The notes under the pieces are model-generated. The model was not told where the DNA came from. It searched no databases and saw only the letters and a program-made list of their open reading frames with translations. From the NCBI GenBank assembly GCA_905234765.1, contig CAJOIF010000016.1:1-64000 (forward strand): DNA of 64,000 nucleotides. The letters run 5' to 3'. Made by a program: the position numbers and the translations under genes. Positions 19,378 to 62,165 of the stretch are shown piece after piece. The stretch is from an uncultured Bacteroidales bacterium. GTDB lineage: Bacteria > Bacteroidota > Bacteroidia > Bacteroidales > F082. Each line of letters begins with the position of its first letter. Within the stretch, counting starts at the first letter, position 1.

Positions 19378-21160
19378 TCTAACCAAATCAAATCATCATT
19401 GTAGAGACGCAAGATTTTGCGTCTCTACAATTGTATTTGTTTGGTTTATAATCAATTTATTGCAAGGCCTCTTCACGGAAATCCACGAAGACGAGGCCTA
19501 TTATGCCCTCTTCGGTGAGCATCTTGCTTGGGGTTATTTCGATCACCCGCCCATGGTGGCGCTGATGACATTCTTGAGCGGCCTGCTTTTTTCAGGCACC
19601 TTGGGCGTGCGGTTCTGCACCATCGTGGTGTCGTGCATTACCATATTAATTATGTGGCATCTCCTCGGCGAGGACAAGCCCGACAAAAACAAGGTGATTT
19701 TGTTTTTTGTCTTGACCTTTTCCATCTTGATGGTCAATCTGTATGGCTTCATTACCACACCTGACGCGGCATTGCTGTTGTTTTCGGCCTTGTTTCTGTT
19801 GATGTATCAGCATTATCTCAACGAAAACTCGTGGAAAAATGCACTTTGGATGGGTTTGCTGATGGCATTGATGGTCTACAGCAAATACCACGCATTTCTT
19901 TTGTTGGGATTGATTGTGCTGTCCAACCTTAAACTACTGAAAGACGGCAAGTTTTACGTAGCTTGTCTTTTGGCTTTGGCCGTATTGATGCCACACATTC
20001 TTTGGCAAATCAATGCCGACTTCCCTAGTTTCCGTTACCATCTTTCGGGTCGCAGCGAGTCGTTCCAGTGGAGCTATTTCTTTGAGTATCTGCCCAATCA
20101 GTTGCTGGTTTTCAATCCGTTTGTCTTTGGCGCGGTGGTGTATGTGCTTTGTAAAGGTTCAGCAGGCATGTCATACCGAACCTTTCTGCCCATAGATTCG
20201 CTTCGGCAAAAGCCTCGGAATGACATGGGCAGAAAGGCGAGTGTATCTATGCCTTCTGAATTAGTCTTTGAGCGTGGATTGAAATTCATCCTTGTCGGTT
20301 TCTTTTTCTTCTTTTGGCTGATGACTTTCCGAGGGCACGTGGAGCCACATTGGACGGCTGTGTGTATTATTCCATCCGTCATACTTTTGTATCGAAAAGC
20401 TTTGGTTGACAGTAAGTTGATGAAATATACCCAGTGGGTGATTGCGCCGTCGCTGCTTTTGATGGTATTCGTTCGTATAGCCTTGCTTACACCACTTTCG
20501 ACTTCGTTTGGCTTTTACGGAAAGGAAGCGCACTATAGAGCTGTTGAGTCGGTGGCGGGTGATAGCCCTGTGGTGTTTCAAGGGTCGTTTCAAAAGCCCG
20601 CTTTGTATCATTTCTTTTCGGGCAAGGAAAGTTCTTCCTTGCGTTGCTATTACGACCGCATGACCCAGTTTGACCTATGGCAGTTTGACAAGGCTTGGAT
20701 AGGAAAACCAGTGTTTGTCTATGGTGCCTCTGGCAGTTTATCACAGGAATATCATTTTGGAAATGAACAATTTATTGGTTACAAAACGGAGCATTTCATG
20801 ACGGCAAACCGATTGGAGACCAAGTTTGAGATCACCAATTTGGGAAAAGAGATTCCGCCTGTTTTTCGCACTGACGACACGCTTCACATGGATTTTTCCA
20901 TTTACAATCCTTTTGATCAAGCAGTTGTCGTTCAATCAGAGATGGTACTAAAGTTATTGTTGGTCGATGAAAATGACGTGCGTTATTGTATCCATGACCC
21001 GATACCCGACCTGAAGCCAAACGAAACGTATAATGGTCATCTATCTGTTGTGCTGAGCGATATGGAGGCGGGGAAACACCGTGTGGTTTTATGTATCGGG
21101 GACCGAATCGCTAATTTTGCGGCAGTGGAGGACGCGGTGGAAATTGAGGTGGAGTTTTAA
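19367..21160 (+). CDS. Membrane glycosyltransferase, ArnT/PMT-like (GT39/GT83 family)
   Basis: 597 residues. The GT-C signature is present: an early acidic motif followed by EHLAWGYFDHPPMVALM, typical of ArnT-like proteins that use polyprenyl-phosphate sugars on the outer face of the inner membrane. About ten hydrophobic helices fill the first 370 residues; the remainder is a soluble beta-rich domain (DDTLHMDFSIYN). No ATG lies between 19367 and the first helix, so this start is retained although it overlaps glnA and carries a palindrome (19398-19431) in frame. A second palindromic insert (20165-20253) sits between helices, adding residues such as SYRTFLPIDSLRQKPRNDM. Confidence 0.82.
   Translation: MSVNLTKSNHHCRDARFCVSTIVFVWFIINLLQGLFTEIHEDEAYYALFGEHLAWGYFDHPPMVALMTFLSGLLFSGTLGVRFCTIVVSCITILIMWHLLGEDKPDKNKVILFFVLTFSILMVNLYGFITTPDAALLLFSALFLLMYQHYLNENSWKNALWMGLLMALMVYSKYHAFLLLGLIVLSNLKLLKDGKFYVACLLALAVLMPHILWQINADFPSFRYHLSGRSESFQWSYFFEYLPNQLLVFNPFVFGAVVYVLCKGSAGMSYRTFLPIDSLRQKPRNDMGRKASVSMPSELVFERGLKFILVGFFFFFWLMTFRGHVEPHWTAVCIIPSVILLYRKALVDSKLMKYTQWVIAPSLLLMVFVRIALLTPLSTSFGFYGKEAHYRAVESVAGDSPVVFQGSFQKPALYHFFSGKESSSLRCYYDRMTQFDLWQFDKAWIGKPVFVYGASGSLSQEYHFGNEQFIGYKTEHFMTANRLETKFEITNLGKEIPPVFRTDDTLHMDFSIYNPFDQAVVVQSEMVLKLLLVDENDVRYCIHDPIPDLKPNETYNGHLSVVLSDMEAGKHRVVLCIGDRIANFAAVEDAVEIEVEF
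19398..19431. repeat. Perfect 15-bp-arm hairpin in the 5' coding region of the glycosyltransferase
   Basis: Arms ATTGTAGAGACGCAA and TTGCGTCTCTACAAT are perfectly complementary around a 4-base GATT loop. Sequences of this TGTAGAGACGC type are known as dispersed palindromes in several phyla. Here it encodes part of HCRDARFCVSTI just before the first membrane helix. Confidence 0.85.
20165..20253. repeat. Palindromic element, CATGTCATACCGA family, in-frame copy 1
   Basis: Bounded by GGCAT and ATGCC. It contains CATGTCATACCGA (20167-20179), an inner perfect 13-bp pair CCTTTCTGCCCAT/ATGGGCAGAAAGG (20181-20193, 20225-20237) and the end motif GTGTATCTATGC. It keeps the glycosyltransferase frame open. 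Confidence 0.8.
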
Positions 21161-21675
21161 TCTTCATCCACGCCAAGAAAAGTTCTTCGCTGACGGATTT
21201 CCTCTTTGACGTATTCGACGGTGTTGCGTTGTCGGGCTTTTTTGTCGATTTCAACCTGATGTTGCTCGATGTCGTAAAGTGTAGTTTCCAGCCTTGCCTT
21301 TTGCCCATCCATAAGGAAAGCGATACCATCTACCTCTTGTAGTTTCTTCAAAATAAAGTCGATGCGCTGTTGTGACACTTCGCCTCGAATAATGAACAGG
21401 TAATCAACCCTGACCGAAAAGTCGAAAATGGATTTCTTGTCATAAGAAGTGGCCACAAAATTGTAGACCGCATCGTTTTCACCACCAAAGTAGGAATAAA
21501 AAGGATAAATGCCACCGTCTTTAATGATGTCGTTCTGCCGTTCGAGTAGTATGGAGAGTTTGTTGTTGATAAGCCACGCCAGCTTGTAATCGCGTAGGCC
21601 GGAGTTGATGCCAATGACGCAAGTGTCGTCGAACGAGGGTTGAATGATGTCCAGTTGTACTTTGGAGGTTGCCAT
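21157..21675 (-). CDS. IPExxxVDY family protein
   Basis: 172 residues. The N-terminal part NSGLRDYKLAWLINNKLSI and the later VDYLFIIRGE match the small Bacteroidota family named for its IPExxxVDY motif; the IPE part is altered here. Function unknown. It is the last gene after acpP-fabF-rnc. A TATCTTTG box lies only 5 bases before the ATG (21680-21687), which would give a leaderless message if used. It overlaps the convergent glycosyltransferase stop by 4 bases. Confidence 0.65.
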   Translation of the reverse strand: MATSKVQLDIIQPSFDDTCVIGINSGLRDYKLAWLINNKLSILLERQNDIIKDGGIYPFYSYFGGENDAVYNFVATSYDKKSIFDFSVRVDYLFIIRGEVSQQRIDFILKKLQEVDGIAFLMDGQKARLETTLYDIEQHQVEIDKKARQRNTVEYVKEEIRQRRTFLGVDED

Positions 21676-21688
21676 GCGGCAAAGATAG

Positions 21689-22408
21689 TTATTTTACCAA
21701 AACGTTAAAGGTTTTTTCGGCCGCAATCTGTTCGGCACGCTTCAACGAATAATCAGTACACTCGCCATAGCCCGTATTGTCAATGAAAATCTGGACATGA
21801 TAGGTCTTCCGACGGTCTGTCATTTTTTCTTCCAAGAGTCTGAACTCCAAATTCTTGTGTTGTTTTTGTGCCCATTCTAGCAATTTGCTCTTGAAGTTGA
21901 CATCGGTTTGTTGCAACTGTTCGAGGTCGATGTGGACGCGCAGGATGCGGTCGACGATAATGTGTTGGGAAAAACCGAAACCTCGGTCAAGGTAAATAGC
22001 ACCCATGAGGGCTTCGAAGACGTTACCACCTAACGAGCGAAAGCTATCATCGTAATGATGGTTTTCGGGGCGGTATTTGATGTAGTCTTCAAAGCCAAGT
22101 TTTTGAGCCAACTTGTTGAGTGACACACGACTGACAATGCGGGAGCGCATCTCGGTAAGGAAACCTTCGGGTTGGGTGGGGTAGGTGTGGAAGAGGTAAT
22201 CGCCCACGACAAGTTCGAGGACGGCATCACCGAGGTATTCAAGTCGTTCGTTGCTGAGACGGTAATCGCCAACGCTTTCCTCCGATTTCGATTTGTGCGT
22301 AAAGGCCAACTGGTATAAAGCGATATTTTTCGGTCGGAAGCCGAAGAGGTTGTATAAATAATCGGAAAGGGATTTTTCGTCGGGAGAGAGGTGGGAGAAA
22401 AGGGCCAT
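21689..22408 (-). CDS. rnc: Ribonuclease III
   Basis: 239 residues. Double-stranded RNA endonuclease for rRNA and mRNA processing. The signature NERLEYLGDAVLELVVGDYLF holds the catalytic acidic residues, and a second acidic cluster follows in FEALMGAIYLDRGF. The C-terminal double-stranded RNA-binding domain ends AEQIAAEKTFNVLVK. It starts 2 bases before the end of fabF, so the two are probably cotranslated. Confidence 0.94.
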   Translation of the reverse strand: MALFSHLSPDEKSLSDYLYNLFGFRPKNIALYQLAFTHKSKSEESVGDYRLSNERLEYLGDAVLELVVGDYLFHTYPTQPEGFLTEMRSRIVSRVSLNKLAQKLGFEDYIKYRPENHHYDDSFRSLGGNVFEALMGAIYLDRGFGFSQHIIVDRILRVHIDLEQLQQTDVNFKSKLLEWAQKQHKNLEFRLLEEKMTDRRKTYHVQIFIDNTGYGECTDYSLKRAEQIAAEKTFNVLVK

Positions 22409-22409
22409 C

Positions 22410-23663
22410 TTAGTTCTCGTACTTTTTGAAAATCAGGGTGGCGTTTTGTCCGCCGAAGCCGAACGAATTGGAAAGCGCGTAGTGGATATCGCGTTGGCGG
22501 GCTTGGTTGAAAGTGAAATCGAGGCGTGGGTCGATTTTGGGATCGTCGTCAAAGTGGTTGATGGTGGGCGGGATGATGCCATTTTTTAGGGCGAGGATGC
22601 TGGCGATGGCTTCAACAGCTCCGGCGCCGCCCAATAGATGGCCTGTCATGGATTTGGTGGAGTTAAGGCTGATGTTGTAAGCGTGTTCGCCAAACACTTC
22701 CTTGATGGCGATAGGCTCAGCAAGGTCGCCCGCAGGTGTTGAGGTGCCATGGGTATTGATGTGGTCGATAGCATCGGGGGTGATGTCTGCATCGGCTAAG
22801 GCACGTTTCATGCTGAGGATGCCGCCTAAGCCTTCGGGATGAGGTGCTGTAATGTGGTAGGCATCGGCCGAAGCACCGCCGCCCACAACCTCAGCATAAA
22901 TCTTAGCGCCACGCGCCACGGCATGTTCGTATTCTTCCAAGACAAGGCATCCCGCGCCTTCACCCATGACAAAACCATCGCGGTTGAGGTCGAAAGGACG
23001 TGAAGCTGTCAATGGATCGTCATTGCGGGTAGAAAGTGCATGCATGGCGTTGAAGCCGCCAATGCCGCACACACCGATGGCCGCACCAGCGCCGCCTGCA
23101 ATAATCACGGAACTTTTTCCCAAGCGGATATAATTGAAGGCTTCAATGACTGCGTGAGCCGATGAAGCGCAGGCCGATACAGTAGAGAAGTTAGGGCCGC
23201 GGAAGCCGTACTTGATGGAGACGACACCCGCTGGCATGTTGACAATCATCTTTGTGATGAGGAAGGGGCTGAAACGCGGTGTAAGGTCGGTTTTCGAATA
23301 GTCCATAACCTCATTATACATATGATTGACGCCACCAATGCCAGAAGTAATTATTATGCCTACGTCGTCATAGTCGGTGTTCTCGGGGCTGATGCCCGAA
23401 TCGACAATGGCTTCGTCGGCGGCGATGAGGTCAAACTGGGCGAAGAGGTCGTATTTGCGGGCCGTCTTCTTGTCAAAATAATTGTCGGGGTCGTACCCTT
23501 TCACCTCACAGGCGAAATGGGTCTTAAATAAAGTAGAATCGAAACGGGTGATGTCTCCTGCGCCATTCTTGCCATGTATCAAACCTTCCCAGAAATCCTT
23601 AATGGTGTTTCCGATGGGGGTAATGGCTCCGAGGCCAGTGACGACTACTCGTTTCGATTCCAT
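22410..23663 (-). CDS. fabF: Beta-ketoacyl-ACP synthase II
   Basis: 417 residues. Elongating condensing enzyme of type II fatty acid synthesis. The Cys-His-His triad is visible in VSACASSAHAV, NTHGTSTPAGD and STKSMTGHLLGGAGAVEA, and the N-terminus VVVTGLGAITPIG is typical. It follows acpP by about 30 bases on the same strand, the standard acpP-fabF-rnc order. Confidence 0.96.
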   Translation of the reverse strand: MESKRVVVTGLGAITPIGNTIKDFWEGLIHGKNGAGDITRFDSTLFKTHFACEVKGYDPDNYFDKKTARKYDLFAQFDLIAADEAIVDSGISPENTDYDDVGIIITSGIGGVNHMYNEVMDYSKTDLTPRFSPFLITKMIVNMPAGVVSIKYGFRGPNFSTVSACASSAHAVIEAFNYIRLGKSSVIIAGGAGAAIGVCGIGGFNAMHALSTRNDDPLTASRPFDLNRDGFVMGEGAGCLVLEEYEHAVARGAKIYAEVVGGGASADAYHITAPHPEGLGGILSMKRALADADITPDAIDHINTHGTSTPAGDLAEPIAIKEVFGEHAYNISLNSTKSMTGHLLGGAGAVEAIASILALKNGIIPPTINHFDDDPKIDPRLDFTFNQARQRDIHYALSNSFGFGGQNATLIFKKYEN

Positions 23664-23695
23664 TGATTGTTTAATTTTTGTTTTGGTGAAACCCG

Positions 23696-23944
23696 TTAGG
23701 CTTCGCGCATCTTTTCGATGAGGCGAACCACGTCACCCACGGTTTGGATGCTTTCCTGTTGGTCGTCCGGGATGGAGAGGTTGAAGTTCTTTTCAAATTC
23801 CATCATCAGTTCGACGGTGTCCAGTGAATCGGCGCCCAGATCGTTGGTGAAACTGGCTTCCATGGTGACTTCCGAAGGATCCACGCCAAGTTTTTCGGCG
23901 ATAATCGGAACGATTTCATTCAAAATTTCTTGCATAGTTTTCAA
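23696..23944 (-). CDS. acpP: Acyl carrier protein
   Basis: 82 residues (79 if translation starts at the internal ATG at 23935). Carries acyl chains on the phosphopantetheine attached to Ser in [15 protein letters not shown]. The protein is acidic, with the usual four-helix pattern. It heads the acpP-fabF-rnc unit with two candidate -7 boxes upstream. Confidence 0.96.
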
Positions 23945-23968
23945 TTTTTAATGTTTGTAAAAACGCCG

Positions 23969-23976
23969 CAAAGATA
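23969..23976 (-). promoter_or_regulatory. -7 box (TATCTTTG), proximal, for acpP
   Basis: Exact TAnnTTTG on the minus strand, 25 bases before acpP. Confidence 0.55.
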
Positions 23977-24084
23977 CACTATATTTTCTTTCAAAAACAA
24001 ATTTTTCTCATATTACTGAGAATCAAATGTTTATGTCTGGATAAAAAGTGGGTCTCGCGACCAAAAATTACTCGTTTTCGGCGA

Positions 24085-24092
24085 CAAAGGTA
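24085..24092 (-). promoter_or_regulatory. -7 box (TACCTTTG), distal, for acpP
   Basis: Second exact box, about 140 bases before acpP, so the unit may have tandem promoters. Confidence 0.4.
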
Positions 24093-24121
24093 CGAAATTT
24101 TTAATAACAACGGTTTTTTTC

Positions 24122-25786: not shown

Positions 25787-25817
25787 CTTTGTCTACGTTT
25801 ACATCAAAACTATGCGG

Positions 25818-25825
25818 CAAAGATA
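25818..25825 (-). promoter_or_regulatory. -7 box (TATCTTTG) for the TPR-LuxR gene
   Basis: Exact TAnnTTTG on the minus strand, 31 bases before the start. Confidence 0.55.
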
Positions 25826-25862
25826 GTAAAAATGACACAGTCAATTGCGCATGATTTCAATA

Positions 25863-25996
25863 TAAGTAGATGTTCAAATTTAGTTTACATAGAAGACGCG
25901 AGACACGAGACTGCGAGACGTTTGGCTTGTCCCGAGTCCCGAAGGCCCGCGTCCCGTGTCAAAACAATATGTAGTTTAATTTTGAACACTTACTTA
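25863..25996. repeat. MITE-like 134-bp inverted-repeat unit (GTCTCGCAGTC family, copy 1)
   Basis: Ends are inverted 16-mers with 14 matches: TAAGTAGATGTTCAAA (25863-25878) and the complement of TTTGAACACTTACTTA (25981-25996). The interior is GC-rich, with GAGACACGAGACTGCGAGACG and GGCCCGCGTCCCGTGTC in partly complementary arms. No ORF is inside. It fills the gap between two minus-strand genes. Confidence 0.65.
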
Positions 25997-26000
25997 GAAC

Positions 26001-26953: not shown

Positions 26954-27175
26954 TAATAAAACCTCGCCGTTTTTTCAAGGGGAAAACCAAAGTATGGTTT
27001 TTTGTTCCCTTAAAAATTGTCAATTTATTGAAAAACAATAATGTATAAAATAATAATGTATTGGTTTTTACTGCTTTGACGAAGAAAAAAGCAGTGTCAA
27101 AGTTCTTCTTTTTTGATAAAAACCGCACTTAGATATTCCGAAACTTCGTATTTTTACACCTCCAAACAATACGAT

Positions 27176-30073
27176 ATGGAAAACACAGAGAAAAAACTCT
27201 TCCTCTTGGATGCCTATGCCTTGATTTACAGGGCTTTTTTTGCCTTAAGCAAGACCCCGCGCCTCAACTCGAAAGGTTTCAACACCTCGGCGGTGATGGG
27301 CTTTTTGAACTCGCTCTACGAGATTCTGAAAAACGAGAGACCTACCCATATTGGCGTGGCTTTCGACGTGGCCGGCACCGAGCAACGGCAAGCCGAATAC
27401 AGTGAATACAAGGCCAATCGAGAGAAGATGCCCGACGATCTCCGCGAATCCATACCTTATATAATAAGGCTCGTTGAGGCCTTTAACATACCTGTTTACG
27501 GCGTGGAAGGCTATGAGGCCGACGATGTCATCGGTACACTATCGAAAAAAGCAGAAAAACAAGGATTTACAACCTATATGATGACCCCCGACAAGGACTT
27601 TGGGCAACTCGTCACCGACAAAATCCTTCTATACAAACCCGCCAAATTCGGCGAGCCAGCACAGATATGGGGCCCGAAAGAGGTCTGCGAACGCTACGGT
27701 ATTCAAGAACCCAAACAACTCATAGATATTTTGGGACTATGGGGCGATGCCGCCGACAATATCCCAGGCATTCCAGGTATCGGAGAGAAAACTGCGGCGA
27801 TATTGGTTGGGAAATACGGCAGCGTGGAAAACCTCATCGCCCACGCCGACGAACTGAAAGGCAAGCAAAAGGAAAACGTTATCGAGTTTGCCGATCAAGG
27901 GTTGATGTCAAAGGCGTTGGCTACCATCAATTTGGAGGTGCCTGTGGATTTTGACGAGGAAGAACTTCGCGCCAAGGAACCCGACGTGCCCGCGCTGATG
28001 GCCTTGTTTGAGGAACTGGAGTTCAAAACCTTCGCAAAGCGATTTTTGGAGGATTACAAGAAAACGCACGAAGACGCTTCCCCGTCATTGCGAGGAACGA
28101 AGCAATCCAGGGAAGCTGCGGGGAGTCAAACACCCGACCTGTTTTCCAATGAAACATCTAGCCCATCAGGACAAATTGACCTCTTCCACCAAGGTGACGG
28201 TGGCCTTTTGGCCTTCTCCGACAAAGACTCGGCAAAGACCGTCAAACATGATTACAAACTTGTGGAAACCGATGACGATATCAAGGCGTTAGTGGAACTT
28301 CTCCATGCGCATGTCATACCGACCAACGAAGGAGGGAGTGTATCTATGCGCAAGCAGTTCGTCTTCGACACCGAAACGACCAACATCGATGTGTATTCCG
28401 CTGAATTAGTGGGCCTTTCCTTCGCCATCAAAGCACACGAGGCTTGGTATCTGCCTATGTCTGCCGACCGCGAGGAATGCCAGAAGAAACTGGAATTGTT
28501 GCGGCCTTTGTTCGAGGACGAAAGCATCCTAAAAATCGGGCAAAACCTGAAATATGACATCTCCATGCTGGCGCAATACGGCATCGAGGTCAAAGGAAAA
28601 CTGTTCGACACCATGTTGGCGCATTATCTTCTGGAACCCGAGCAACGCCATAATATGGATTATCTCGCCGAAGTCTATCTCAACTACATCACCATCCCCA
28701 TCGAGGACTTGATTGGCAAGGGACGGCAACAAAAAACCATGCGCGAAGTGCCGATGGAATTGGTCAAGGAATACGCTGCCGAGGATGCCGACATTACGCT
28801 GCAACTTTATGAAAAACTGCAGCCGCTGTTGAAGGAAAATGGCGTAGAAAAATTGTTTTACGAAATCGAGATGCCGCTCGTGCCCGTGCTGAGTCGCATG
28901 GAGGCCAACGGCGTGAAAATCGACACGGAAAACCTGCAACAAATCAGCGAGGAGTTTGGAAAAGAAATCCACAAGATTGAGGAGGAGATTTATGCGCTGG
29001 CAGGCACACCTTTTAATATAGCCTCACCAAAACAGTTAGGCGAAATTCTTTTTGAGAAATTACGCATCGACGAGAAAGCCAAGAAAACTAAGACGGGACA
29101 ATATGCCACGGGCGAGGAGGTGCTGCAAAAGCTCTTGCACAAACACCCCGTCGTCCAAAAGATTTTGGATTATCGTTCGTTTACAAAGCTAAAATCCACC
29201 TACCTTGACGCGCTGCCTGCTTTGGTCAATCCGAAAGATGGACTGATTCATACCTCTTACAATCAAGCAGTCACTGCTACAGGGCGCTTGAGTTCCAACA
29301 ACCCGAACTTGCAAAACATCCCCGTGCGCACAGCCCAAGGCCGTGAGATCCGTCGTGCCTTTGTGCCGCGCAGCCCGCAATACACGCTTTTGGCCGCCGA
29401 CTATTCCCAAATCGAGTTGCGCATCATCGCTCATTTAAGTCAAGACCCCGCCATGGTAGCCGACTTCAACCTCGGCCACGACATCCATGCGGCCACAGCT
29501 GCCAAAGTGTTCCACGTGCCGATGGAGCAAGTGACCAAGGAACAGCGCAGCCGTGCCAAGGCGGTCAACTTCGGCATCATCTATGGCATGTCGGCTTTCG
29601 GTCTGGCTGAAAGGATGGAACTCTCGCGCAGTGAGGCCGCCGACATCATCAAGAAGTACTTCGAGGAATATGCTGGCATCAAGGAATACATGAATCGCAG
29701 CATTGCCATGGCCAAGGAACGCGGCTATGCCGAGACCATCCTAGGTCGCCGTCGTTATCTTCGCGACATCAATGGTGCCAACAGCGTGGTGCGCGGTTTC
29801 GCCGAGCGCAACGCCATCAATGCGCCCATCCAAGGCAGCAGCGCCGACATGATCAAAATCGCCATGATTGGCATTCATGAGGAGCTTCAACGACTGAACA
29901 TGCAGTCCAAGATGATTTTGCAAGTGCATGACGAACTGGTTTTTGACGCGCATCTCGATGAACTCGACGAACTGAAATCTATTGTCGAGAATAAGATGGT
30001 GAACGCCTTGCCCTTATCGGTGCCGGTGGTGGTGGAGATGAACACGGGAAGCAATTGGTTGGAGGCGCATTAA
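27176..30073 (+). CDS. polA: DNA polymerase I
   Basis: 965 residues from the ATG at 27176 (MENTEKKLFLLDAYALIYRA). Order of domains: 5'-3' exonuclease (residues 1-290, EGYEADDVIGTL, DNIPGIPGIGEKTA); a linker; 3'-5' proofreading exonuclease with intact FDTETT, NLKYDIS and AAEDADITLQLYE; and the polymerase (ADYSQIELRIIAHL, RSRAKAVNFGIIYGMS, QVHDELVFDAH). The linker holds two in-frame palindromic inserts: one encoding SLRGTKQSR (28081-28123) and one of the CATGTCATACCGA family (28306-28352) directly before the proofreading domain. Neither should disturb the active sites. Confidence 0.96.
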   Translation: MENTEKKLFLLDAYALIYRAFFALSKTPRLNSKGFNTSAVMGFLNSLYEILKNERPTHIGVAFDVAGTEQRQAEYSEYKANREKMPDDLRESIPYIIRLVEAFNIPVYGVEGYEADDVIGTLSKKAEKQGFTTYMMTPDKDFGQLVTDKILLYKPAKFGEPAQIWGPKEVCERYGIQEPKQLIDILGLWGDAADNIPGIPGIGEKTAAILVGKYGSVENLIAHADELKGKQKENVIEFADQGLMSKALATINLEVPVDFDEEELRAKEPDVPALMALFEELEFKTFAKRFLEDYKKTHEDASPSLRGTKQSREAAGSQTPDLFSNETSSPSGQIDLFHQGDGGLLAFSDKDSAKTVKHDYKLVETDDDIKALVELLHAHVIPTNEGGSVSMRKQFVFDTETTNIDVYSAELVGLSFAIKAHEAWYLPMSADREECQKKLELLRPLFEDESILKIGQNLKYDISMLAQYGIEVKGKLFDTMLAHYLLEPEQRHNMDYLAEVYLNYITIPIEDLIGKGRQQKTMREVPMELVKEYAAEDADITLQLYEKLQPLLKENGVEKLFYEIEMPLVPVLSRMEANGVKIDTENLQQISEEFGKEIHKIEEEIYALAGTPFNIASPKQLGEILFEKLRIDEKAKKTKTGQYATGEEVLQKLLHKHPVVQKILDYRSFTKLKSTYLDALPALVNPKDGLIHTSYNQAVTATGRLSSNNPNLQNIPVRTAQGREIRRAFVPRSPQYTLLAADYSQIELRIIAHLSQDPAMVADFNLGHDIHAATAAKVFHVPMEQVTKEQRSRAKAVNFGIIYGMSAFGLAERMELSRSEAADIIKKYFEEYAGIKEYMNRSIAMAKERGYAETILGRRRYLRDINGANSVVRGFAERNAINAPIQGSSADMIKIAMIGIHEELQRLNMQSKMILQVHDELVFDAHLDELDELKSIVENKMVNALPLSVPVVVEMNTGSNWLEAH
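28081..28123. repeat. Palindromic insert encoding SLRGTKQSR inside polA
   Basis: CCCG...CGGG ends enclose ATTGC (28087-28091) and GCAAT (28102-28106) around GAGGAACGAA. This CATTGCGAGG...AAGCAATCC type is a widely spread palindromic repeat. Here it is translated as part of the polA linker. Confidence 0.75.
28306..28352. repeat. Palindromic element, CATGTCATACCGA family, in-frame copy 2 (polA)
   Basis: Terminal arms TGCGCAT (28306-28312) and ATGCGCA (28346-28352) are perfectly inverted. The element shares CATGTCATACCGA and GAGTGTATCTATG with the copies at 20.2 and 62.1 kb and encodes HVIPTNEGGSVSM. Confidence 0.8.
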
Positions 30074-55340: not shown

Positions 55341-55342
55341 TG

Positions 55343-57658
55343 TTATTGAACCAAAATTTTGGCAGCACACCGACCAGATCCATCCTTGGTGCTGGCAAAG
55401 ATAAGATAAACGCCTGGAGTGACACGTTGTCCGTCAATGGTGGTGAGGTCCCAAACGGCTTGACCACCTTCCGACATCATTTGTGTCACAAACTTGCCGT
55501 CGACGGTTGTGATTCTGACCAGAGAGTTGGCGACGAGCCCTTTGATGCCGACATAACCTTCGTATTCGGGTCTGACAGGGTTGGGATAGGCGATGACATT
55601 GTCAGGATTTTCTACTGGTTCTGAGGCTTCGGAACGGTAGGAGATCACGCCGCTTGCTGTGCCGAAAAACACCTCTCCCTCATCGGAAATAGCCATGGTT
55701 GTCACGGAGTTTTCCAGCAAGGGACTGTTGTCGGTGGTGAAGTAATGTATCTGTTCAGGTTTCTGCTCGAACGACATAAGACTCACACCCGAATCGAGGC
55801 CAAACCAAATTTGGTTGGCACCGTTGACGGCCATGGACAACACGTTGGAGCCTTTGAAGAGCGGATCCCATTGGCTGGTGCCGTCGTTGCGATCGATTTT
55901 TACCACCGAGGCCGTATAGCCTTGTTCGGTAAAGATACGTTTGGTGTCATCAAAATAACACGGCCCGTCGCTAGTGCCTACCCAAACAGCACCGTCCTTA
56001 TCGACGGCGAGGCAGTTGACGGTACCCAACAGCCCTCCGCTGGAAGTGCTTTTGTTGAGATAAGCCACTTGGTCGTCAGAGGTGATGTCAAGGGTGCCTC
56101 CGTCGTTGAAGACGATGAGTTCACCATTGCGCCTGATGATCCATTTATAGTCGTTTTTGTCAATGACCATGGTTCCAAGATCGGCACCGCTAGTAGTGCC
56201 GCCAAGGCTATAGGATTGCCATGTACCGTCGGTTTTCATCACCGAGAGGGGTTTGGCAGCTCCAGTGTTGGCCACCCAAAGGTTGTGCTTGCTGTCGAAA
56301 CCGAGGCCACTGATGTTGACGAGGTTGGGGTCCGCAATCCAGTAATCGAGCGAGCTGTTATCGGTGTTATAGACTTTTACTACTTGGTCGTCTTTGATTT
56401 GAATGAGGCCGTCGCCCCAGGTGCCGATATAAGTGATGCTTGGGTCATTGGGGTCGGTGACGGTGCATACATAGTCGGAGAAACCGGACAGTGTTTCCAT
56501 ATTGTCGTTGTAGAAAACCGTCCACATGCCGTCAAATCGGGCGACACCTTCTTTCAAATAGCGCTTCCCCCAGTTGGGCAAATGGCCTCCTGTGGCAATC
56601 CAAACTTGGTTGCCGCAGGCTTGCAGTTCAAAGACATTTTTTGACAAGGGGCCATTGGGTATGATGTCTTCATAATTCCATCCGTTGTTGGTTTTGATGA
56701 GGCCGCGTCGTGTGTCGCCAATCCAATAATCATGGTTGCTGTCGATAGCTGTCGATAGCGGCTCAATGCTGCTGCCTGGCGAATAAATGTTGAGCGTTTG
56801 GTTCAGGTTGCGGTCGTAGACCAGTACATTGTAACGAGAGGTAATGACGAACACATTGTCATAGGCGCGGAGTTCCATTTTTTGGCTTACATCGCTCTTA
56901 TCGAAATAGTCCCATCCGTTGCCGTTGTTGACGAAAAGTGTGTCTTGTTCGAAGCCGCCGTCGTAGTTGAGGAAGAGTTTGTTGTTGAAGACTTCCATTT
57001 CGGTGTAAGCCAGATGTGGATGAATCACCGAGCTGTCGAAATGCCACGAGGCGTAGTTGGCGAGGTTGGGTTCGTTTTGGGAAGCGTAATACACACCATT
57101 GTCGGTGCAGGCATAGATGCGACCATTGAAGAGCGCCACGTCGGTAACGTTTACGGAACTACCCTGGCTTCCAATATAATAGGTGTCTTTTACCTCTTCG
57201 CGGTTCAAATCGAAAACAACAATACCAAAGCTACAGGCCACGTAAGCCAAACTACCATCGAAAAATATATGGTTGATGTTTTTGTTGCCGACAATGTTTT
57301 TGTCTCGGATGTCACTCATGTTGGAAACGTTTCCGTCGGCATCAATCAGGTCGATATTGGCATTGGTGTAGGCTACCATAAGTTTGCGTTGGCTTTCGTT
57401 GTAGGCCATTGTGCTGATGCCGACATCCGACAATCCATTGATTTTATTCAGGATGTTGATGGAGTTGTCTTCCTTGTCGTAATAGAACAATTCGTGTTCT
57501 GTGGCAGCATAAACGAAGTTGCCTACAGGTTCCACGGCGATAACTTTGTGATAGGGCAGATGGGTGCGCCATTCGCCAATGGAAATGCTGTTTTGGGCAA
57601 AACCGATTGTGCCAAGGAGGGTAAATATTAATAAGGTGTAAATCTTCGGTCTGTTCAT
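55343..57658 (-). CDS. porZ: PorZ-like beta-propeller protein of the T9SS
   Basis: 771 residues. Signal peptide LLIFTLLGTIGFAQ. The body is a series of two-component-regulator propeller-like repeats (SIGEWRTHLPYHKVIAVEPVG, YYDKEDNSINILNKINGLSD, IYACTDNGVYYAS, IWFGLDSGVSLM, VFFGTASGVISYR) that would form two seven-blade propellers. The last 80 residues are a T9SS type A sorting domain (IAYPNPVRPEYEGYVGIKG, GVYLIFASTKDGSGRCAAKILVQ). PorZ is a surface part of the PorU/V/Q/Z attachment complex that handles A-LPS-modified cargo. The recO gene follows on the same strand. Confidence 0.85.
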   Translation of the reverse strand: MNRPKIYTLLIFTLLGTIGFAQNSISIGEWRTHLPYHKVIAVEPVGNFVYAATEHELFYYDKEDNSINILNKINGLSDVGISTMAYNESQRKLMVAYTNANIDLIDADGNVSNMSDIRDKNIVGNKNINHIFFDGSLAYVACSFGIVVFDLNREEVKDTYYIGSQGSSVNVTDVALFNGRIYACTDNGVYYASQNEPNLANYASWHFDSSVIHPHLAYTEMEVFNNKLFLNYDGGFEQDTLFVNNGNGWDYFDKSDVSQKMELRAYDNVFVITSRYNVLVYDRNLNQTLNIYSPGSSIEPLSTAIDSNHDYWIGDTRRGLIKTNNGWNYEDIIPNGPLSKNVFELQACGNQVWIATGGHLPNWGKRYLKEGVARFDGMWTVFYNDNMETLSGFSDYVCTVTDPNDPSITYIGTWGDGLIQIKDDQVVKVYNTDNSSLDYWIADPNLVNISGLGFDSKHNLWVANTGAAKPLSVMKTDGTWQSYSLGGTTSGADLGTMVIDKNDYKWIIRRNGELIVFNDGGTLDITSDDQVAYLNKSTSSGGLLGTVNCLAVDKDGAVWVGTSDGPCYFDDTKRIFTEQGYTASVVKIDRNDGTSQWDPLFKGSNVLSMAVNGANQIWFGLDSGVSLMSFEQKPEQIHYFTTDNSPLLENSVTTMAISDEGEVFFGTASGVISYRSEASEPVENPDNVIAYPNPVRPEYEGYVGIKGLVANSLVRITTVDGKFVTQMMSEGGQAVWDLTTIDGQRVTPGVYLIFASTKDGSGRCAAKILVQ

Positions 57659-57848
57659 AACAATGCGATTTGGGCTGTAAAGGTACGAAATTAATGAATT
57701 AAACGGGGTTTCGGGTGAATTATTGTTTTTGAAAACTTACGCTTTTCCAAAGTGTAACCTATCTGTCTACATTTCCGACAACCAATAAGGAAAATCTTTC
57801 GCGCCAAATGGATGACGCTGAAAAAGAGCATCATATAAGGCTTGTTTC

Positions 57849-57856
57849 TACCTTTG
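57849..57856 (+). promoter_or_regulatory. -7 box (TACCTTTG) for the FISUMP gene
   Basis: Exact TAnnTTTG, 60 bases before the ATG at 57917; the leader contains ACCGATGGACCGATGGGAT. Confidence 0.5.
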
Positions 57857-57916
57857 CGAGGTAATAAACTAACCTTAAAACCGATGGACCGATGGGATAG
57901 AACAGGTTGAAAAACG

Positions 57917-59140
57917 ATGAAATTTGGGAGAAATTCACTTATTGCTATGGCTGTTTTATCACTTTCCATCTTTCAGACATCGATAAGTTATGCGCAATGG
58001 CATGGTGGAATGGGATACCAAAATGGGCACGAATATGTTGATCTTGATTTGCCGAGTGGTACTTTATGGGCCACCTGTAATGTGGGCGCTACCACCCCAG
58101 TGGGCTATGGCGCACACTTTCCTTGGGGCGAAACTACTGCAATGAAATTATGTAGCTATGACACATATAAGTACATCCGAGGTATGTATACTCTTTGTCT
58201 TTCTAAATACTGCCCCGATGCAAAGTTTGGCTGTAATGATTTCGCTGATAATCTGACCGTTTTGGAGCCATGTGACGATGCCGCTTCGGCTCATTGGGGC
58301 AATGGTTGGAGAATGCCTACCAAGGAAGAGTGGGAAGAGTTGATTGCTAATACCACTCAGTCAGGCACTACCCGAAACGGTGTAAACGGTGTACAGTTCT
58401 CTGCACCCAACGGACAATCAGTTTTCTTGCCTGCTGCTGGTTGTTCTGATTGGATCAGGGAGAGTGATATGAGTGGAACAATCGGGTTGTACTGGTCAAG
58501 CTCGCTATGTCGTTTTAAACCGTTCTATGCATGGAATATGAGGATTTTGGCAAATGCGGTTGATGGTGATCCATTTGTCTATTGGGAAGGCCCCCGTAAC
58601 AATTGTTACTCTGTCAGGCCAGTATGCTCAAGGCAATATAGTAATACTAACAAGGGATTATTGAACTCTTATGAGGCAGAGATGGCTTCTATTAATGATG
58701 TCAGAGCAGGTCTGAAAGATTATAAAGAGCATAATCGTGTGACTCATATGCTTATTACAAGAGGAGATGGAGCATACTTCGTGTCTGAAAAAGGCGAAGT
58801 TATTTCTATGGATTTATCTACTATGGATAATGATCACGATCAATTATTGAGGATTCAAGGGGAATGGTGCCACCATGCTTATGAAGAAGGATATAGTTGG
58901 AATTTTATAAATGCTCAAATTCTATCTTTTGATAAAGTCTCTGTTTGGATTAAATATAAAGGCAAAAAGTGGGAAGAGGTATATTCTGGTCCATCATCGA
59001 TTTATTTGTCACCCAATACGGTGTATTCTGAAAAGCTTTCCAAAGCATTTGCTATACCCTCAAACAAATCCATATATTTAGGAGGTATTGATGACATTAG
59101 AATTCGTTTTGAAGGTGGAAAAGTGACCACAATCTATTAA
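57917..59140 (+). CDS. Secreted FISUMP-domain protein
   Basis: 407 residues. Signal peptide (LIAMAVLSLSIFQTSISYAQ). Residues 30-240 match the Fibrobacter succinogenes major paralogous domain (FISUMP/DUF1566 type): HEYVDLDLPSGTLWATCNVGA, FPWGETT, GNGWRMPTKEEWEELI, LPAAGCSDWI and GLYWSSSL. From 245 on is a separate beta-rich region without a name (AGLKDYKEHNRVTHMLITRG, YLSPNTVYSEKLSKA). The gene is AT-rich. Exported by Sec; no T9SS tail is seen. Role unknown. Confidence 0.78.
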   Translation: MKFGRNSLIAMAVLSLSIFQTSISYAQWHGGMGYQNGHEYVDLDLPSGTLWATCNVGATTPVGYGAHFPWGETTAMKLCSYDTYKYIRGMYTLCLSKYCPDAKFGCNDFADNLTVLEPCDDAASAHWGNGWRMPTKEEWEELIANTTQSGTTRNGVNGVQFSAPNGQSVFLPAAGCSDWIRESDMSGTIGLYWSSSLCRFKPFYAWNMRILANAVDGDPFVYWEGPRNNCYSVRPVCSRQYSNTNKGLLNSYEAEMASINDVRAGLKDYKEHNRVTHMLITRGDGAYFVSEKGEVISMDLSTMDNDHDQLLRIQGEWCHHAYEEGYSWNFINAQILSFDKVSVWIKYKGKKWEEVYSGPSSIYLSPNTVYSEKLSKAFAIPSNKSIYLGGIDDIRIRFEGGKVTTIY

Positions 59141-59200
59141 TAATTCAATAATAAATCAACCCCGATGCGCCCGATGGGATATAACTGGGCACCAAAGAAA

Positions 59201-59641
59201 ATGAAGAAAATATTCTTATTTGTTGTGTCATTGTTTTGTATAACAATGGCTGTGAATGCACAAGATGCAAGTGGTAGTTGCAAATTGCCTGGAACTTATG
59301 ATTATGTGAATGTTGATTTCTATAAAGGCTCTTCTAATGGGGAAGGAAACATCGTACTAAGTAACCAAACAAGCACTGGTCAGTATATTACTGAAATTAA
59401 AGTACAAGTTACGGCGGAAATCCTATATGATTATGAAGAAGAATACAAAGGTACTTATACGGGAGGTACACCTATCTATCAAAAAAACAAAAATAAACCA
59501 TTATGGAAAACCGTAACATTGTTTAATGATAAGATTCGTGGTATTAGTGCGAACGAGACCAGAAGACAAACTGTCTCAATGCCAAAATATTATGATATCA
59601 GAAATATTGAAGTTTCGGTTGGAAATCTTATCTGCAAATAA
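59201..59641 (+). CDS. Small secreted protein, unknown function
   Basis: 146 residues from the ATG at 59201 (MKKIFLFVVSLFCITMAVNAQ signal peptide). The mature part is beta-rich (YDYVNVDFYKGSSNGEGNIVLSN-like strands) with an acidic YDYEEEYKGTYTGG region. AT-rich like the gene before it, 60 bases upstream, and its leader CCCGATGCGCCCGATGGGAT resembles that of the FISUMP gene. No family recognised. It ends at a strong terminator. Confidence 0.62.
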   Translation: MKKIFLFVVSLFCITMAVNAQDASGSCKLPGTYDYVNVDFYKGSSNGEGNIVLSNQTSTGQYITEIKVQVTAEILYDYEEEYKGTYTGGTPIYQKNKNKPLWKTVTLFNDKIRGISANETRRQTVSMPKYYDIRNIEVSVGNLICK

Positions 59642-59660
59642 TTCTAAAAATAAAAGAATC

Positions 59661-59705
59661 AATAAAGGTGTCCTTATGTTCATGGACACCTTTATTCTTT
59701 TTTTT
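59661..59705 (+). terminator. Strong Rho-independent terminator
   Basis: Perfect 13-bp arms AATAAAGGTGTCC and GGACACCTTTATT with a 10-base loop, followed by C and eight T. Ends the two-gene secreted unit. Confidence 0.9.
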
Positions 59706-59739
59706 CACGACAATATGGTTAGTAATTATAAATTCTCCT

Positions 59740-59747
59740 TATCTTTG
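59740..59747 (+). promoter_or_regulatory. -7 box (TATCTTTG) for the structured leader and XRE gene
   Basis: Exact TAnnTTTG, 250 bases before the XRE-like gene, so a long untranslated leader is implied. Confidence 0.5.
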
Positions 59748-59826
59748 TCCCAACAAAAAAGAAAGGACTTATAGACAAAATTAAAATACTGACATAACCA
59801 CACCGAGCTTTACGCTCTTATTCTGA

Positions 59827-59964
59827 TACATCGAAAATCTGGTACATTTTGGAGTAAGAATAAGTTTGCGAAAAGTTCATGTCCGTTGGGCGTGAACTGT
59901 TTCGTTTTACCAGAGCCTCGATGTATGGATAAGCAAGCAAAACGGTTCCGCCCGTTTTGTTTGC
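59827..59964 (+). other. Strongly structured leader or RNA element before the XRE-like gene
   Basis: No gene in 59642-59997. Nested pairing is visible: a 9-bp outer stem (59826-59834 with 59918-59926), a 3x3 loop, a 7-bp stem TCTGGTA/TACCAGA (59838-59844 with 59908-59914), and within it a 13-bp hairpin with one bulge (59869-59881 with 59891-59904). A second 13-bp hairpin with one G-U (GCAAGCAAAACGG, 59933-59945, with 59952-59964) lies 33 bases before the ATG. There is no T-run, so this is not a terminator. Confidence 0.5.
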
Positions 59965-59997
59965 CTACCGCGCAAGGCTCCCCGCAAAGGCAAACCA

Positions 59998-60234
59998 ATG
60001 ATTGAAGAACCGCATATAGGGAAACTCATCAAAGCTGAATTGGCTCGGCAAGGACGCAGCATCACCTGGCTGGCTGTGCAACTCAACTATTCGCGGCAGT
60101 ATGTCTACAAATTGTTTCGCCGCAAATGGATTTACACAGATTTGCTGCTCAAAATCTGCGATATTCTGGATTATGATTTCTTCAAATGCTTTTCGGAATG
60201 GCGGGAGCAAAGAAACAAAATCGCTACCAAATAA
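59998..60234 (+). CDS. Small XRE-like DNA-binding protein
   Basis: 78 residues. Helix-turn-helix pattern IGKLIKAELARQGRSITWLAVQLNYSRQYVYKLFRRKWIYTD, then LLLKICDILDYDFFKCF. This is the Cro/CI-type fold of small orphan regulators in Bacteroidales. It has a long leader with strong structure and no partner gene on the same strand. Targets unknown. Confidence 0.72.
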   Translation: MIEEPHIGKLIKAELARQGRSITWLAVQLNYSRQYVYKLFRRKWIYTDLLLKICDILDYDFFKCFSEWREQRNKIATK

Positions 60235-60254
60235 CCATTTTGGAAGGAATGATT

Positions 60255-60431
60255 TTATGCACGATAACTTTTTCTAATACCGTTTCTCAACAAAGTGCCA
60301 AATTGCGAAACAGTCATGCTGCCCTCAGGTATGGTTTCGTCAACAGTCGCCAACCCAGAACTAATCAGATTTCCCAAGGCATCAAGCACCATCTGATTGT
60401 TTTCGTCGTATCTCAGAGTTATTGTCGTCAT
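60255..60431 (-). CDS. Orphan antitoxin-like small protein
   Basis: 58 residues from the ATG at 60431 (MTTITLRYDENNQMVLDALGNLI). The N-terminal part looks like the RelB-type antitoxins of Bacteroidales (MTTxTLxYDxxN...L..L..SGL). A perfect -7 box lies 21 bases upstream. No toxin gene follows; the next gene to the left runs the other way. It may be a remnant or a solitary regulator. Confidence 0.5.
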   Translation of the reverse strand: MTTITLRYDENNQMVLDALGNLISSGLATVDETIPEGSMTVSQFGTLLRNGIRKSYRA

Positions 60432-60452
60432 TTTTCCGAATGGTTTCTGTTG

Positions 60453-60460
60453 CAAAAGTA
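60453..60460 (-). promoter_or_regulatory. -7 box (TACTTTTG) for the orphan antitoxin-like gene
   Basis: Exact TAnnTTTG on the minus strand, 21 bases before the ATG. Confidence 0.5.
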
Positions 60461-60501
60461 ACAATTATTTACTAAATCGCAATAGTTTACGAAATTCTTT
60501 G

Positions 60502-60509
60502 TACTTTTG
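60502..60509 (+). promoter_or_regulatory. -7 box (TACTTTTG) for the pseudouridine synthase
   Basis: Exact TAnnTTTG, about 120 bases before the ATG at 60632; the leader contains a palindromic repeat (60519-60600). Confidence 0.55.
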
Positions 60510-60518
60510 CCGCCCATT

Positions 60519-60600
60519 ATCGGACTTTGGGACTTCAATTCTTAGAAACGGAGGGACTTGAGAGTCACGAGTCTCGCAGTCCCGCGTCCCGTAGTCCAAT
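60519..60600. repeat. GTCTCGCAGTC family repeat, copy 3, in the leader of the pseudouridine synthase
   Basis: Ends ATCGGACTTTGGGAC and the complement of GTCCCGTAGTCCAAT match at 12 of 15 positions. The interior GAGTCTCGCAGTCCCGCGTCCCG matches the copies at 25.9 and 36.7 kb. Confidence 0.6.
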
Positions 60601-60631
60601 ACCACTTATACATTATTTATATACCAACAAA

Positions 60632-62071
60632 ATGACTGACAACGAAAGATCTGGCAAGCGTCCGCGCACCAGAAGAGAGGAACCGGAAGAGTTCCAGCAG
60701 AGAAGAACCTTCAAATTCTATCACCGCGACGGTGACGAAGAAGGTGAGAGAAAGTTTGGCGACGAGCCGAGAGGTGAACGCCGCTTCAGCGACCGTGGCG
60801 ACCGCAAGTTTGGCGACCGCCGCTTCCATGACGATGACCGTCCGCGTCGCCGTTTCGAAGACAGCGACCGCCCAAGGCGCAGATTCGATGACGACAACAG
60901 TCCGCGTCGTCGTTTTGATGACGACAAACCGCGTGAACGCCGTTTCCATGACGACGATCGTCCGAGACGCAGATTTGACGATGACGACCGTCCACGTCGT
61001 AGATTCAATGACGACGACAAACCAAGAGAGCGTCGTTTCCATGACGATGACAGACCGAGACGTAGATTTGACGACGATAAACCGAGAGGCGACCGCCGTT
61101 TCCATGACGACGACCGTCCGCGTCGCCGCTTCGATGACGACAAGCCCCGTGAACGCCGTTTCAAAGATGACGACCGTCCACGCCGCAGATTTGACGATGA
61201 CCGTCCGAGACGTCGTTTCGACGACGACCGCTCACGTGGTGGCAACCGCCGTTTCGATGACCGCCCAAAACGTAATTTCGACGACGACGAAGAGCCACGC
61301 CGTGGCCGCAAGGGTTATGTTCGTGAGAAAGACCCGCAATATGACCGTCCGAAAGCGACTGGCGAGATTCGCCTCAACAAATATCTGGCCGACTGTGGCA
61401 TTTGCTCGCGCCGCGAAGCTGACGACCTCATCAAGGCTGGTTGCGTAGAGGTGAATGGAGAAGTCATTACCACCATGGGTTACAAAGTGCAGACTGAAGA
61501 TAAAGTGGTGTATGGCGGCCAAACCCTCAACCGAGAGAAGCTTCGCTATATCCTGCTCAATAAGCCCAAAGGTTACATTACCACATCCGATGACCCTTAT
61601 GAGCGCGACACCGTGATGGAGCTTGTTAAAGACGCTTGTCCCGAGCGCATCTTCCCCGTAGGTCGTCTTGATAAGGGCACTACAGGATTGTTGCTGTTCA
61701 CCAACGACGGCGACTTGACCAAGAAACTCACCCACCCAAGCAGCGAGGTGCCGAAACTTTACCACGTCACTTTGAACAAGGCCTTGACCAAAAACGATAT
61801 GCTTCGCATTGCTGATGGCATTGAGCTTGACGATGGCCCCATCGCTGCCGATGCCATCGCCTACGACGAGGATGACGACAGCAAGAAGAGCATCGGCATC
61901 GAACTCCATTCGGGCCGTAACCGTATTGTGCGCCGTATCTTCGAACATCTTGGTTACGAGGTGATTAAACTTGACCGTGTGATGTTTGCTGGTTTGGACA
62001 AATACCGTTTGCCCCGTGGCGAATGGCGCTTCCTCACCGACCTTGAGGTGATGAATCTGAAGAAGATTTAA
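60632..62071 (+). CDS. RluB/RsuA-family pseudouridine synthase with Arg/Asp repeat N-terminus
   Basis: 479 residues from the ATG at 60632 (MTDNERSGKRPR). About the first 230 residues are low-complexity repeats of RRRF-DDD-RPRR type, highly charged and disordered. Then come an S4 RNA-binding domain (IRLNKYLADCGICSRREADDLIKAGCVEVNGE) and the catalytic domain with the active Asp in VGRLDKGTTGLLLFTNDGDL and the late SGRNRIVRRIFEHLGYEV. It should modify U in 23S or 16S rRNA. The N-terminal tail is long even for Bacteroidota members, which often carry a basic extension. Confidence 0.92.
   Translation: MTDNERSGKRPRTRREEPEEFQQRRTFKFYHRDGDEEGERKFGDEPRGERRFSDRGDRKFGDRRFHDDDRPRRRFEDSDRPRRRFDDDNSPRRRFDDDKPRERRFHDDDRPRRRFDDDDRPRRRFNDDDKPRERRFHDDDRPRRRFDDDKPRGDRRFHDDDRPRRRFDDDKPRERRFKDDDRPRRRFDDDRPRRRFDDDRSRGGNRRFDDRPKRNFDDDEEPRRGRKGYVREKDPQYDRPKATGEIRLNKYLADCGICSRREADDLIKAGCVEVNGEVITTMGYKVQTEDKVVYGGQTLNREKLRYILLNKPKGYITTSDDPYERDTVMELVKDACPERIFPVGRLDKGTTGLLLFTNDGDLTKKLTHPSSEVPKLYHVTLNKALTKNDMLRIADGIELDDGPIAADAIAYDEDDDSKKSIGIELHSGRNRIVRRIFEHLGYEVIKLDRVMFAGLDKYRLPRGEWRFLTDLEVMNLKKI
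60784..61270 (+). repeat. Coding repeat of RF-DDD-RPRR units
   Basis: Roughly 15 short units with alternating Arg-rich and Asp-rich blocks separated by Phe (RRFHDDD, RPRRRFDDD, KPRERRF). Codons vary (CGT/CGC/AGA, GAC/GAT), so selection seems to keep the amino-acid pattern. Confidence 0.85.
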
Positions 62072-62073
62072 TC

Positions 62074-62165
62074 GCCCATAGATACACTCGTATTTTGCCA
62101 GCATGTCATACCGAACCTTTAGGTGAGCGTATCTATGCTGACAAAATCCTCGGTATGACATGGGC
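62074..62165. repeat. Palindromic element, CATGTCATACCGA family, copy 3 (intergenic)
   Basis: GCCCAT (62074-62079) and ATGGGC (62160-62165) bound it. CATGTCATACCGA (62102-62114) and TCGGTATGACATG (62150-62162) are perfectly inverted; GAGCGTATCTATGC lies between. It holds the upstream ATG that lengthens the next ORF artificially. Confidence 0.8.

Follow-up and report, generated by a model that had tools for sequence, protein, structure and literature searches.

The stretch analysed here, called the window below, comprises 64,000 nucleotides (positions 1 to 64,000 of contig CAJOIF010000016.1, assembly GCA_905234765.1) from an uncultured Bacteroidales bacterium of the F082 lineage, and it contains three copies of a palindromic repeat, two of them inside genes. 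This is a TGTC-tagged Bacteroidales repeat akin to the CGTC-tagged repetitive extragenic palindromes (REPs) and to the Rickettsia palindromic elements (RPEs) RPE-4 and RPE-6, with nests, arms and inversions as additional features. We consider it probable that it is a dispersed, non-autonomous repeat of the REP kind which has multiplied in a clade of Bacteroidales, and that template switching both preserves its palindromes and flips them. An initial annotation of the window had reported repeats at 20165-20253, 28306-28352 and 62074-62165. All three are real, with correct coordinates and common motifs, and the inverted ends reported for them (GGCAT/ATGCC, TGCGCAT/ATGCGCA and GCCCAT/ATGGGC) are found in the sequence. 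Copies 1 and 2 are translated in frame, as had been claimed, in a PMT_2/GT39-like membrane glycosyltransferase gene and in polA, respectively. Copy 3 is indeed intergenic: on one side is the stop codon that ends a pseudouridine synthase gene, and on the other the ATG at 62173 with which a PG_1098-like gene probably starts.

Exact matches to CATGTCATACCGA lie at 20167(+), 28310(+), 62102(+) and 62150(-), and a copy with one mismatch lies at 20215(-). When up to three mismatches were allowed, the window had 16 matches against 15.7 in shuffled sequences, which is no excess over chance; therefore, it is the exact matches that carry the observation. GTATCTATGC is exact at 20243, 28340 and 62129, and with at most one mismatch it occurs at 7 places (shuffles: mean 1.7, maximum 6). 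Copies 1 and 3 turned out to be composites, each made of two nested elements in opposite orientation, and only copy 2 is a single element. Composite copy 1 (20158..20260, plus strand), supported by sequence, arm pairing and folding, is in frame in the GT39-like gene. Its outer ring strands (20167-20179 and 20239-20251) are enclosed by the outer arms TTCAGCAGG (20158-20166) and CCTTCTGAA (20252-20260), with pairing at 9/10 positions. The inner element of copy 1 (20181..20237, reverse orientation, minus strand) belongs to a sister subfamily, ATTC, characterised by CATAGATTC...GGAATGACATG; its body (20191-20227) stands between arms at 20181-20190 and 20228-20237 that form a perfect 10-bp inverted repeat. 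Copy 2 (28306..28352, plus strand) is a simple element in polA, with a body of 39 bp or 13 codons (28310-28348) and the short arms TGCG/CGCA. Composite copy 3 (62074..62165, minus strand) has outer ring strands at 62077-62089 and 62150-62162 in reverse orientation, with arms GCC/GGC, around an inner element on the plus strand (62092..62147; arms 62092-62101 and 62138-62147, body 62102-62137). Folded as single-stranded DNA, copies 1 and 3 gave z scores of -4.71 and -4.62, and 0/200 shuffles were as stable in each case. The peptides read from the inserts are MSYRTFLPIDSLRQKPRNDMGRKASVSM and HVIPTNEGGSVSM. A scan of the window for related hairpins that required at least 3 paired bases, a setting that misses the three known copies, gave 3 matches, which is at chance level.

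The family is abundant in related genomes. The gapped pattern CATGTCATACCGA-N(10-40)-GTATCTATG was found in at least 120 stretches of one-per-species public genomes. Among the matches listed, all record titles named Bacteroidales, Bacteroidia or metagenome-assembled genomes of bacterium F082/P3, and several isolate names contained rumen, abomasum, deer, goat, buffalo or horse; in the taxonomy, F082 bears the name Candidatus Alcium. Exact copies of the 13-mer core number 42, 44 and 35 in genomes G001, G002 and G003, respectively, and between 3 and 14 in each of the ten others; the reversed pattern gave 0 matches in 13/13 genomes. The copies are therefore not confined to the window, each rich genome holding dozens of cores, and the numbers support the initial suggestion of a mobile or amplifying repeat. 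A wider pattern, CATGTCATNCCGA...GNATCTATG, was present in 2/296 genomes drawn from the phylum, namely G001 itself (38 matches) and G210, which carries 5 copies of CATGTCATTCCGAGCGNAGCGAGGAATCTATG. Thus, at this stringency the family is clade-restricted. Carriage by viruses or plasmids was rejected: the exact pattern had 0 matches in viral contigs (a search with the annotated phage collection outside it), and no plasmid matched 381 bases around copy 1.

Orthologous sites without the repeat, which had been named as the support to look for, do exist. The window and G001 share an insertion of 13 residues (39 bp) in polA that G006, G012 and 27 others lack, so the insert is present in 2/31 sequences and is not a residue block common to all orthologues. 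Of 80 genomes searched for this comparison, 78 had a match, and the 30 best loci were used. The polA empty site is clean, and in G012 the DNA there reads ...TCGGCT-CAAAAACAATTC. For the family, 47/208 outermost elements (some counted twice) have an empty counterpart, corresponding to 27 distinct empty places after merging both strands. Both flanks are at least 84% identical at 12/27 of these places, and the closest comparison, F082 against G006 with a net difference of 122 bp, has flanks that are 98% and 99% identical. Neither arm of the element was present at 25/27 empty places (the other two had one left arm and one right arm), and a control with swapped arms gave 26.1. The arms are thus absent from empty places as often as chance predicts, and they seem to arrive with the insert. 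This bears on the possibility that the repeat enters pre-existing palindromes, such as terminators, so that the inverted arms belong to the target. T-runs follow some arms, as in intrinsic terminators (L021, L024), and many arms are private to one site. However, arms also recur with other copies of the same genome and are missing from nearly all empty places, where most flanks are less than 90% identical and single cases could be missed; we regard palindromic targets as a very improbable explanation. Copying of one local flank into the opposite arm was rejected as well as a source of arms: it looked plausible by eye for L102, L001 and L096, but the count is at chance level.

Many copies lie in coding DNA. 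Fifty of 150 copy entries (in 42 open reading frames (ORFs), with each nested copy entering the count twice) are in frame, with a homologue on both sides of the insert. Pfam searches with 20 of the 42 ORFs named 15. The hosts include GH77, GH3, a Mur ligase, a PIF1-type helicase, an FAD oxidase, chorismate synthase, a Kdo transferase, a HemN-like protein and another radical SAM protein, a protein of the GDP-mannose dehydratase type, alpha-amylase, biotin ligase, an ABC transporter ATPase, rhamnosidase and the PMT_2 protein of the window. The five ORFs without a Pfam match (L005, L011, L012, L065 and L067) may not be genes. The element in the biotin-protein ligase gene is in L078 (2817-3761). 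Inserts of RPEs and of Wolbachia palindromic elements (WPEs) are also described in biotin ligase genes of Rickettsia and Wolbachia, according to the Rickettsia japonica paper (PMC3767692).

The simple unit is a hairpin body of 33-40 nucleotides, CATGTCAT-N-CCGA...G-N'-ATCTATG, whose inner stem is variable, and 5/6 of its reading frames are open, which would help it to survive in coding DNA. Most bodies are enclosed by self-complementary arms of 6-12 bp. The ten bases on each side of the body pair at a mean of 8.21/10, compared with 3.56 for shuffled partners (standard deviation 0.19, maximum 4.16 in 1000 trials), in a sample of 153 copies that amounts to 107 distinct flank pairs and includes inner and outer levels as well as orthologues. 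As many as 77 different 8-mers adjoin the body. Arms in 2.0 Mb of G006 behaved similarly, with 7.41 paired bases against 3.63 (32 pairs). Within the body, the third stem base N and its partner N' (GTCAT-N ... N'-ATCTA) are complementary in 29/33 cases in G006 and in 227/234 cases in the loci, many of which are orthologous and hence not independent events. These pairs cover all four types (A:T, T:A, C:G and G:C), and the control with scrambled anchors gave 1 match. The inner stem varies on both strands (CC..GG 44, GG..CC 16, AC..GT 14 and GC..GC 13; n=103). Complementary changes in the body, paired arms and the close position of copy 3 between two genes could also be expected of structured RNA elements kept for a function, such as transcript processing or stability, whose spread is secondary. 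On the other hand, many copies are found in the coding sequence of unrelated genes, both orientations occur, empty orthologues exist, and no Rfam family matched copy 3 or any other part of the window at the gathering score, apart from one tRNA gene. Template switching alone can keep arms paired. An RNA function is therefore a rather unlikely account of the family.

Within one genome, the same arms and bodies appear in various combinations. A pattern search found 72 composites, with orthologues in different genomes counted apart. Common arms, defined as at least 8/9 identical bases in some orientation, were found in 181/2482 same-genome pairs of outermost elements, compared with 0.015% in the shuffled control. 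Bodies are less than 0.8 alike in 130/181 of the arm-sharing pairs and, conversely, arms differ in 52/78 same-genome pairs whose bodies are at least 0.9 alike; some low body scores reflect a simple body set against a composite one, and some pairs are local duplicates. The body is also inverted in place. Among 28 orthologous groups with members in at least two genomes, 8 include one whose body points the opposite way with respect to its flanks, after exclusion of pairs in which body identity is below 0.75 or a body exceeds 60 bases. In four groups only the inner part is inverted (L057/L074, with flanks 98% alike, L019/L054, L070/L083 and L003/L101), and in four groups the whole composite is (L001/L109, L032/L058, L036/L079, and L047 and L072 versus L113, L118 and L090). 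The last of these is in a radical SAM gene, which is open in both orientations. An assembly artefact is unlikely to be behind the inversions because arms of about 12 bp are below the usual assembly word and composites of about 110 bp are within one usual read.

These data can be compared with a history in which the copies are old insertions, inherited by the clade and now only decaying, so that differences between orthologues are due to loss. G001 and G002 both carry the element in 18 orthologous pairs, and no empty site was seen between these genomes in the sequence parts compared, as such a history would have it. However, the polA insert is in only 2/31 sequences, there are 78 same-genome pairs with bodies at least 0.9 alike, and an inversion separates sites with flanks 98% similar. 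Pure decay is thus unlikely. A further reading has the repeats as modular, self-reshuffling coding palindromes: arms and bodies would be interchangeable, new units would enter at hairpin tips, both levels would turn over, and all of this would be driven by replication through hairpins, with no dedicated transposase. We hold this reading only tentatively, as a real possibility short of probable. If it is true, housekeeping proteins change by blocks of 13-30 residues, including the in-frame swap of a peptide for that encoded on the other strand.

Among known repeats, the CGTC/TGTC superfamily of REPs comes closest. Di Nocera et al. (2013; PMC3733652) include RPE-4 and RPE-6 in this CGTC-tagged superfamily, describe it without a linked transposase, and report Bacteroidetes among the hosts. 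These REPs are defined by a terminal CGTC, often TGTC, complementary AT at the first two stem positions, a stem of 8-9 bp, a loop of 4-5 bases and an unpaired tail that is mostly CCA. The Bacteroidales repeat has the TGTC tag, with CATGTCAT... in all copies (guaranteed by the search pattern itself), and an A-T stem start with ATNC facing GN'AT (the AT anchors being part of the pattern). It also has a short tail (CTA in the search pattern used), inverted dimers and copies inside genes, including DNA polymerase I; short tails, inverted dimers and such intragenic copies are likewise described for the superfamily. It has no linked transposase among the 8 Y1_Tnp loci and one RAYT-like gene inspected (REP-associated tyrosine transposase, RAYT). 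In contrast to the CGTC REPs, the stem is interrupted by non-pairing positions and its inner part is variable, so that it falls outside the limits of 8-9 bp and 4-5 bases. Variable self-complementary arms enclose the body, and neither concentric nests nor in-place inversion is described in the sections of PMC3733652 consulted. In the same genomes, a CGTC-type repeat has weak arms at most (3.27/8 at the best of 16 offsets versus 2.55 when shuffled, maximum 3.53; n=15), and therefore strong arms look like a property of the TGTC lineage. Because of its tag, A-T stem start, intragenic copies and missing transposase, we file the repeat with the CGTC superfamily as a variant; it works like this superfamily and is probably related to it.

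Since this superfamily includes RPE-4 and RPE-6, the comparison with Rickettsia palindromic elements made in the initial annotation is apt, and it holds at the level of motifs: a GTCAT/ATGAC core, in-frame insertions and different repeats at one orthologous site. Like RPEs and WPEs, the Bacteroidales repeat is inserted in frame at tolerated sites, and different groups share one orthologous site (PMC3767692). The ATGAC motif of RPE-4, RPE-6 and RPE-7 corresponds to GTCAT of the Bacteroidales core, a likeness known from the motif only (PMC3767692). The host phylum differs, as do the modular arms and nests of the Bacteroidales repeat. With GTAG REPs, REPINs (paired REPs in inverted orientation) and bacterial interspersed mosaic elements (BIMEs), the family has in common short palindromes, many copies and inverted arrangements; unlike them, it carries a TGTC tag and had no repeat-linked RAYT among the loci inspected. 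In the open-access literature, most subscription papers being outside it, we found no account of the Bacteroidales family, of concentric nests or of in-place inversion.

How could such a repeat be maintained and spread? Template switching between inverted repeats in yeast coding DNA has been reported to homogenise arms and invert the spacer (PMC8604942), and a role in forming and preserving RNA hairpins has been proposed for it (PMC8794818). As both outcomes are reported for template switching (PMC8604942), it is the likeliest process for arm upkeep and inversion. Compared with these precedents, which by their abstracts concern yeast genes and RNA hairpins, the Bacteroidales case concerns a dispersed repeat family, with inversion in 8/28 orthologous groups. 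We propose that DNA polymerase would switch templates between the arms, which would keep the palindromes matched and flip the spacer. New bodies may enter at the hairpin tips of older copies and so give rise to nests. In coding DNA, the survivors would be frame-keeping insertions at tolerant loops. For new distant copies, the likeliest candidate, on weak grounds, is use of the single-stranded hairpin in trans by an IS200-type (Y1/HUH) transposase. Y1_Tnp genes (PF01797) are present in 12/13 genomes.

Several results weigh against a REP-kind repeat kept by template switching. Template switching is deduced from its outcomes and was not itself observed. Between orthologues, arms had changed on both sides with pairing kept in only 7 cells, compared with 35 one-sided changes in which pairing was lost or gained; in a further 21 cells one side had changed with pairing kept. 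Two pairs in which adjacent elements had been confused, the second copy in L075 being set against L005 and against L035, are not part of these counts. Because coordinated arm changes are few, it is mostly the pairing of arms with many different sequences that argues for arm upkeep, and compensatory change less so. The simple polA copy, with its short arms, folds no better than shuffles (z -0.99, 36/200). Both flanks are at least 90% identical at only 4/27 empty places, no target-site duplication was seen at the empty-site comparisons, and there is no empty site between the two closest genomes in the sequence parts compared. Finally, the repeat flanks none of the 8 Y1_Tnp loci read (about 1.4 kb on each side), and RAYT-like genes, found in 8/14 genomes searched, are absent from G001, G002 and G003, the three copy-richest genomes.

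These last two results also bear on movement by a dedicated RAYT, as in GTAG REPs and REPINs. A palindromic repeat in many copies with one tagged end (TGTC), together with RAYT-like genes in over half of the genomes, would be consistent with such an enzyme. The missing gene in copy-rich genomes, the 0/8 Y1_Tnp loci flanked by the repeat, a tag that is not GTAG, and the unrelated palindromes beside the RAYT-like gene of G006 argue against it, and we think a dedicated RAYT improbable. A dedicated linked transposase was therefore rejected as a candidate, there being no linkage in the 8 Y1_Tnp loci and the RAYT-like gene being unlinked and missing from copy-rich genomes. The RAYT-like gene of G006 (L190, 10102-10722; 99% identical in G005) is flanked by its own, different palindromes. 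In L254 there is a single loose match to the pattern, about 1.3 kb from a gene and unrelated in sequence.

The glycosyltransferase that hosts copy 1 (19367..21160, plus strand; PMT_2, GT39-like) carries its insert in a hypervariable loop. A search with this protein returned 4532 proteins, and the loop was readable in 108 of the best 120. It is empty, with nine residues, in 14 and contains peptides of the superfamily to which the window repeat belongs in 46. Two other repeat types account for 38 (12 of the CGTC type and 26 of the CCCCCTT/AAGGGGG type), and the remaining 10 are of other kinds. Peptide motifs served to assign these classes, with a check of translated DNA for the CGTC repeat of the window and the insert of G006 only. 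The loop is a hot spot for repeat insertion. For different repeats at one site, the Rickettsia japonica paper (PMC3767692) left hot spot versus divergence undecided. The present family touches this question of why different repeats share one gene site, and also that of how REPs and RPEs spread. In one enzyme family, a single loop can be empty or filled by at least three types of repeat, and changes in arms, in bodies and in orientation are separately traceable across relatives; therefore, the mechanism is directly testable. The repeat also illustrates how ordinary enzymes can acquire new blocks of peptide sequence.

The other host gene, polA (27113..30073, plus strand), encodes DNA polymerase I. 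The insert of copy 2 ends immediately ahead of the VFDTET stretch, where the alignment to the Klenow fragment begins at the first residues of its 3'-5' exonuclease domain. The linker of polA contains a second, different in-frame palindromic repeat of the CGTC type (CGTCATTGCGAGGAACGAAGCAATCCAG, 28083..28110, plus strand), which is also found in the orthologues of G001 and G012; G006 is without that form. Copy 3 is preceded by a gene with S4 and pseudouridine synthase domains (60527..62071, plus strand) and followed by a PG_1098-like gene with a THUMP-like domain (62173..63342, plus strand). We infer the start of the latter at 62173; the mechanical ORF begins at 62095, inside the element. Copy 3 fills nearly all of the space between the stop codon and the likely next ATG (62071-62173), leaving 7 bases in front of the latter, and may cover the ribosome binding site of the downstream gene.

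Hairpins paired in inverted orientation with a 48-base spacer were seen in L012 (1141-1407) and L075 (3413-3538). In L012 two such pairs are in tandem, 145 bp apart. Sequence beside the pairs of both loci recurs in more than one genome. Near the start of the copy 1 glycosyltransferase gene lies the palindrome GTAGAGACGCAAGATTTTGCGTCTCTAC (19401-19428). The N-terminal region of homologues reads CRDARFCVST in P0002 and P0054 and GRDARFCVST in P0011, and others, such as P0003, are without it. The tRNA gene that is the sole Rfam match in the window is located at 10169-10242 on the minus strand.

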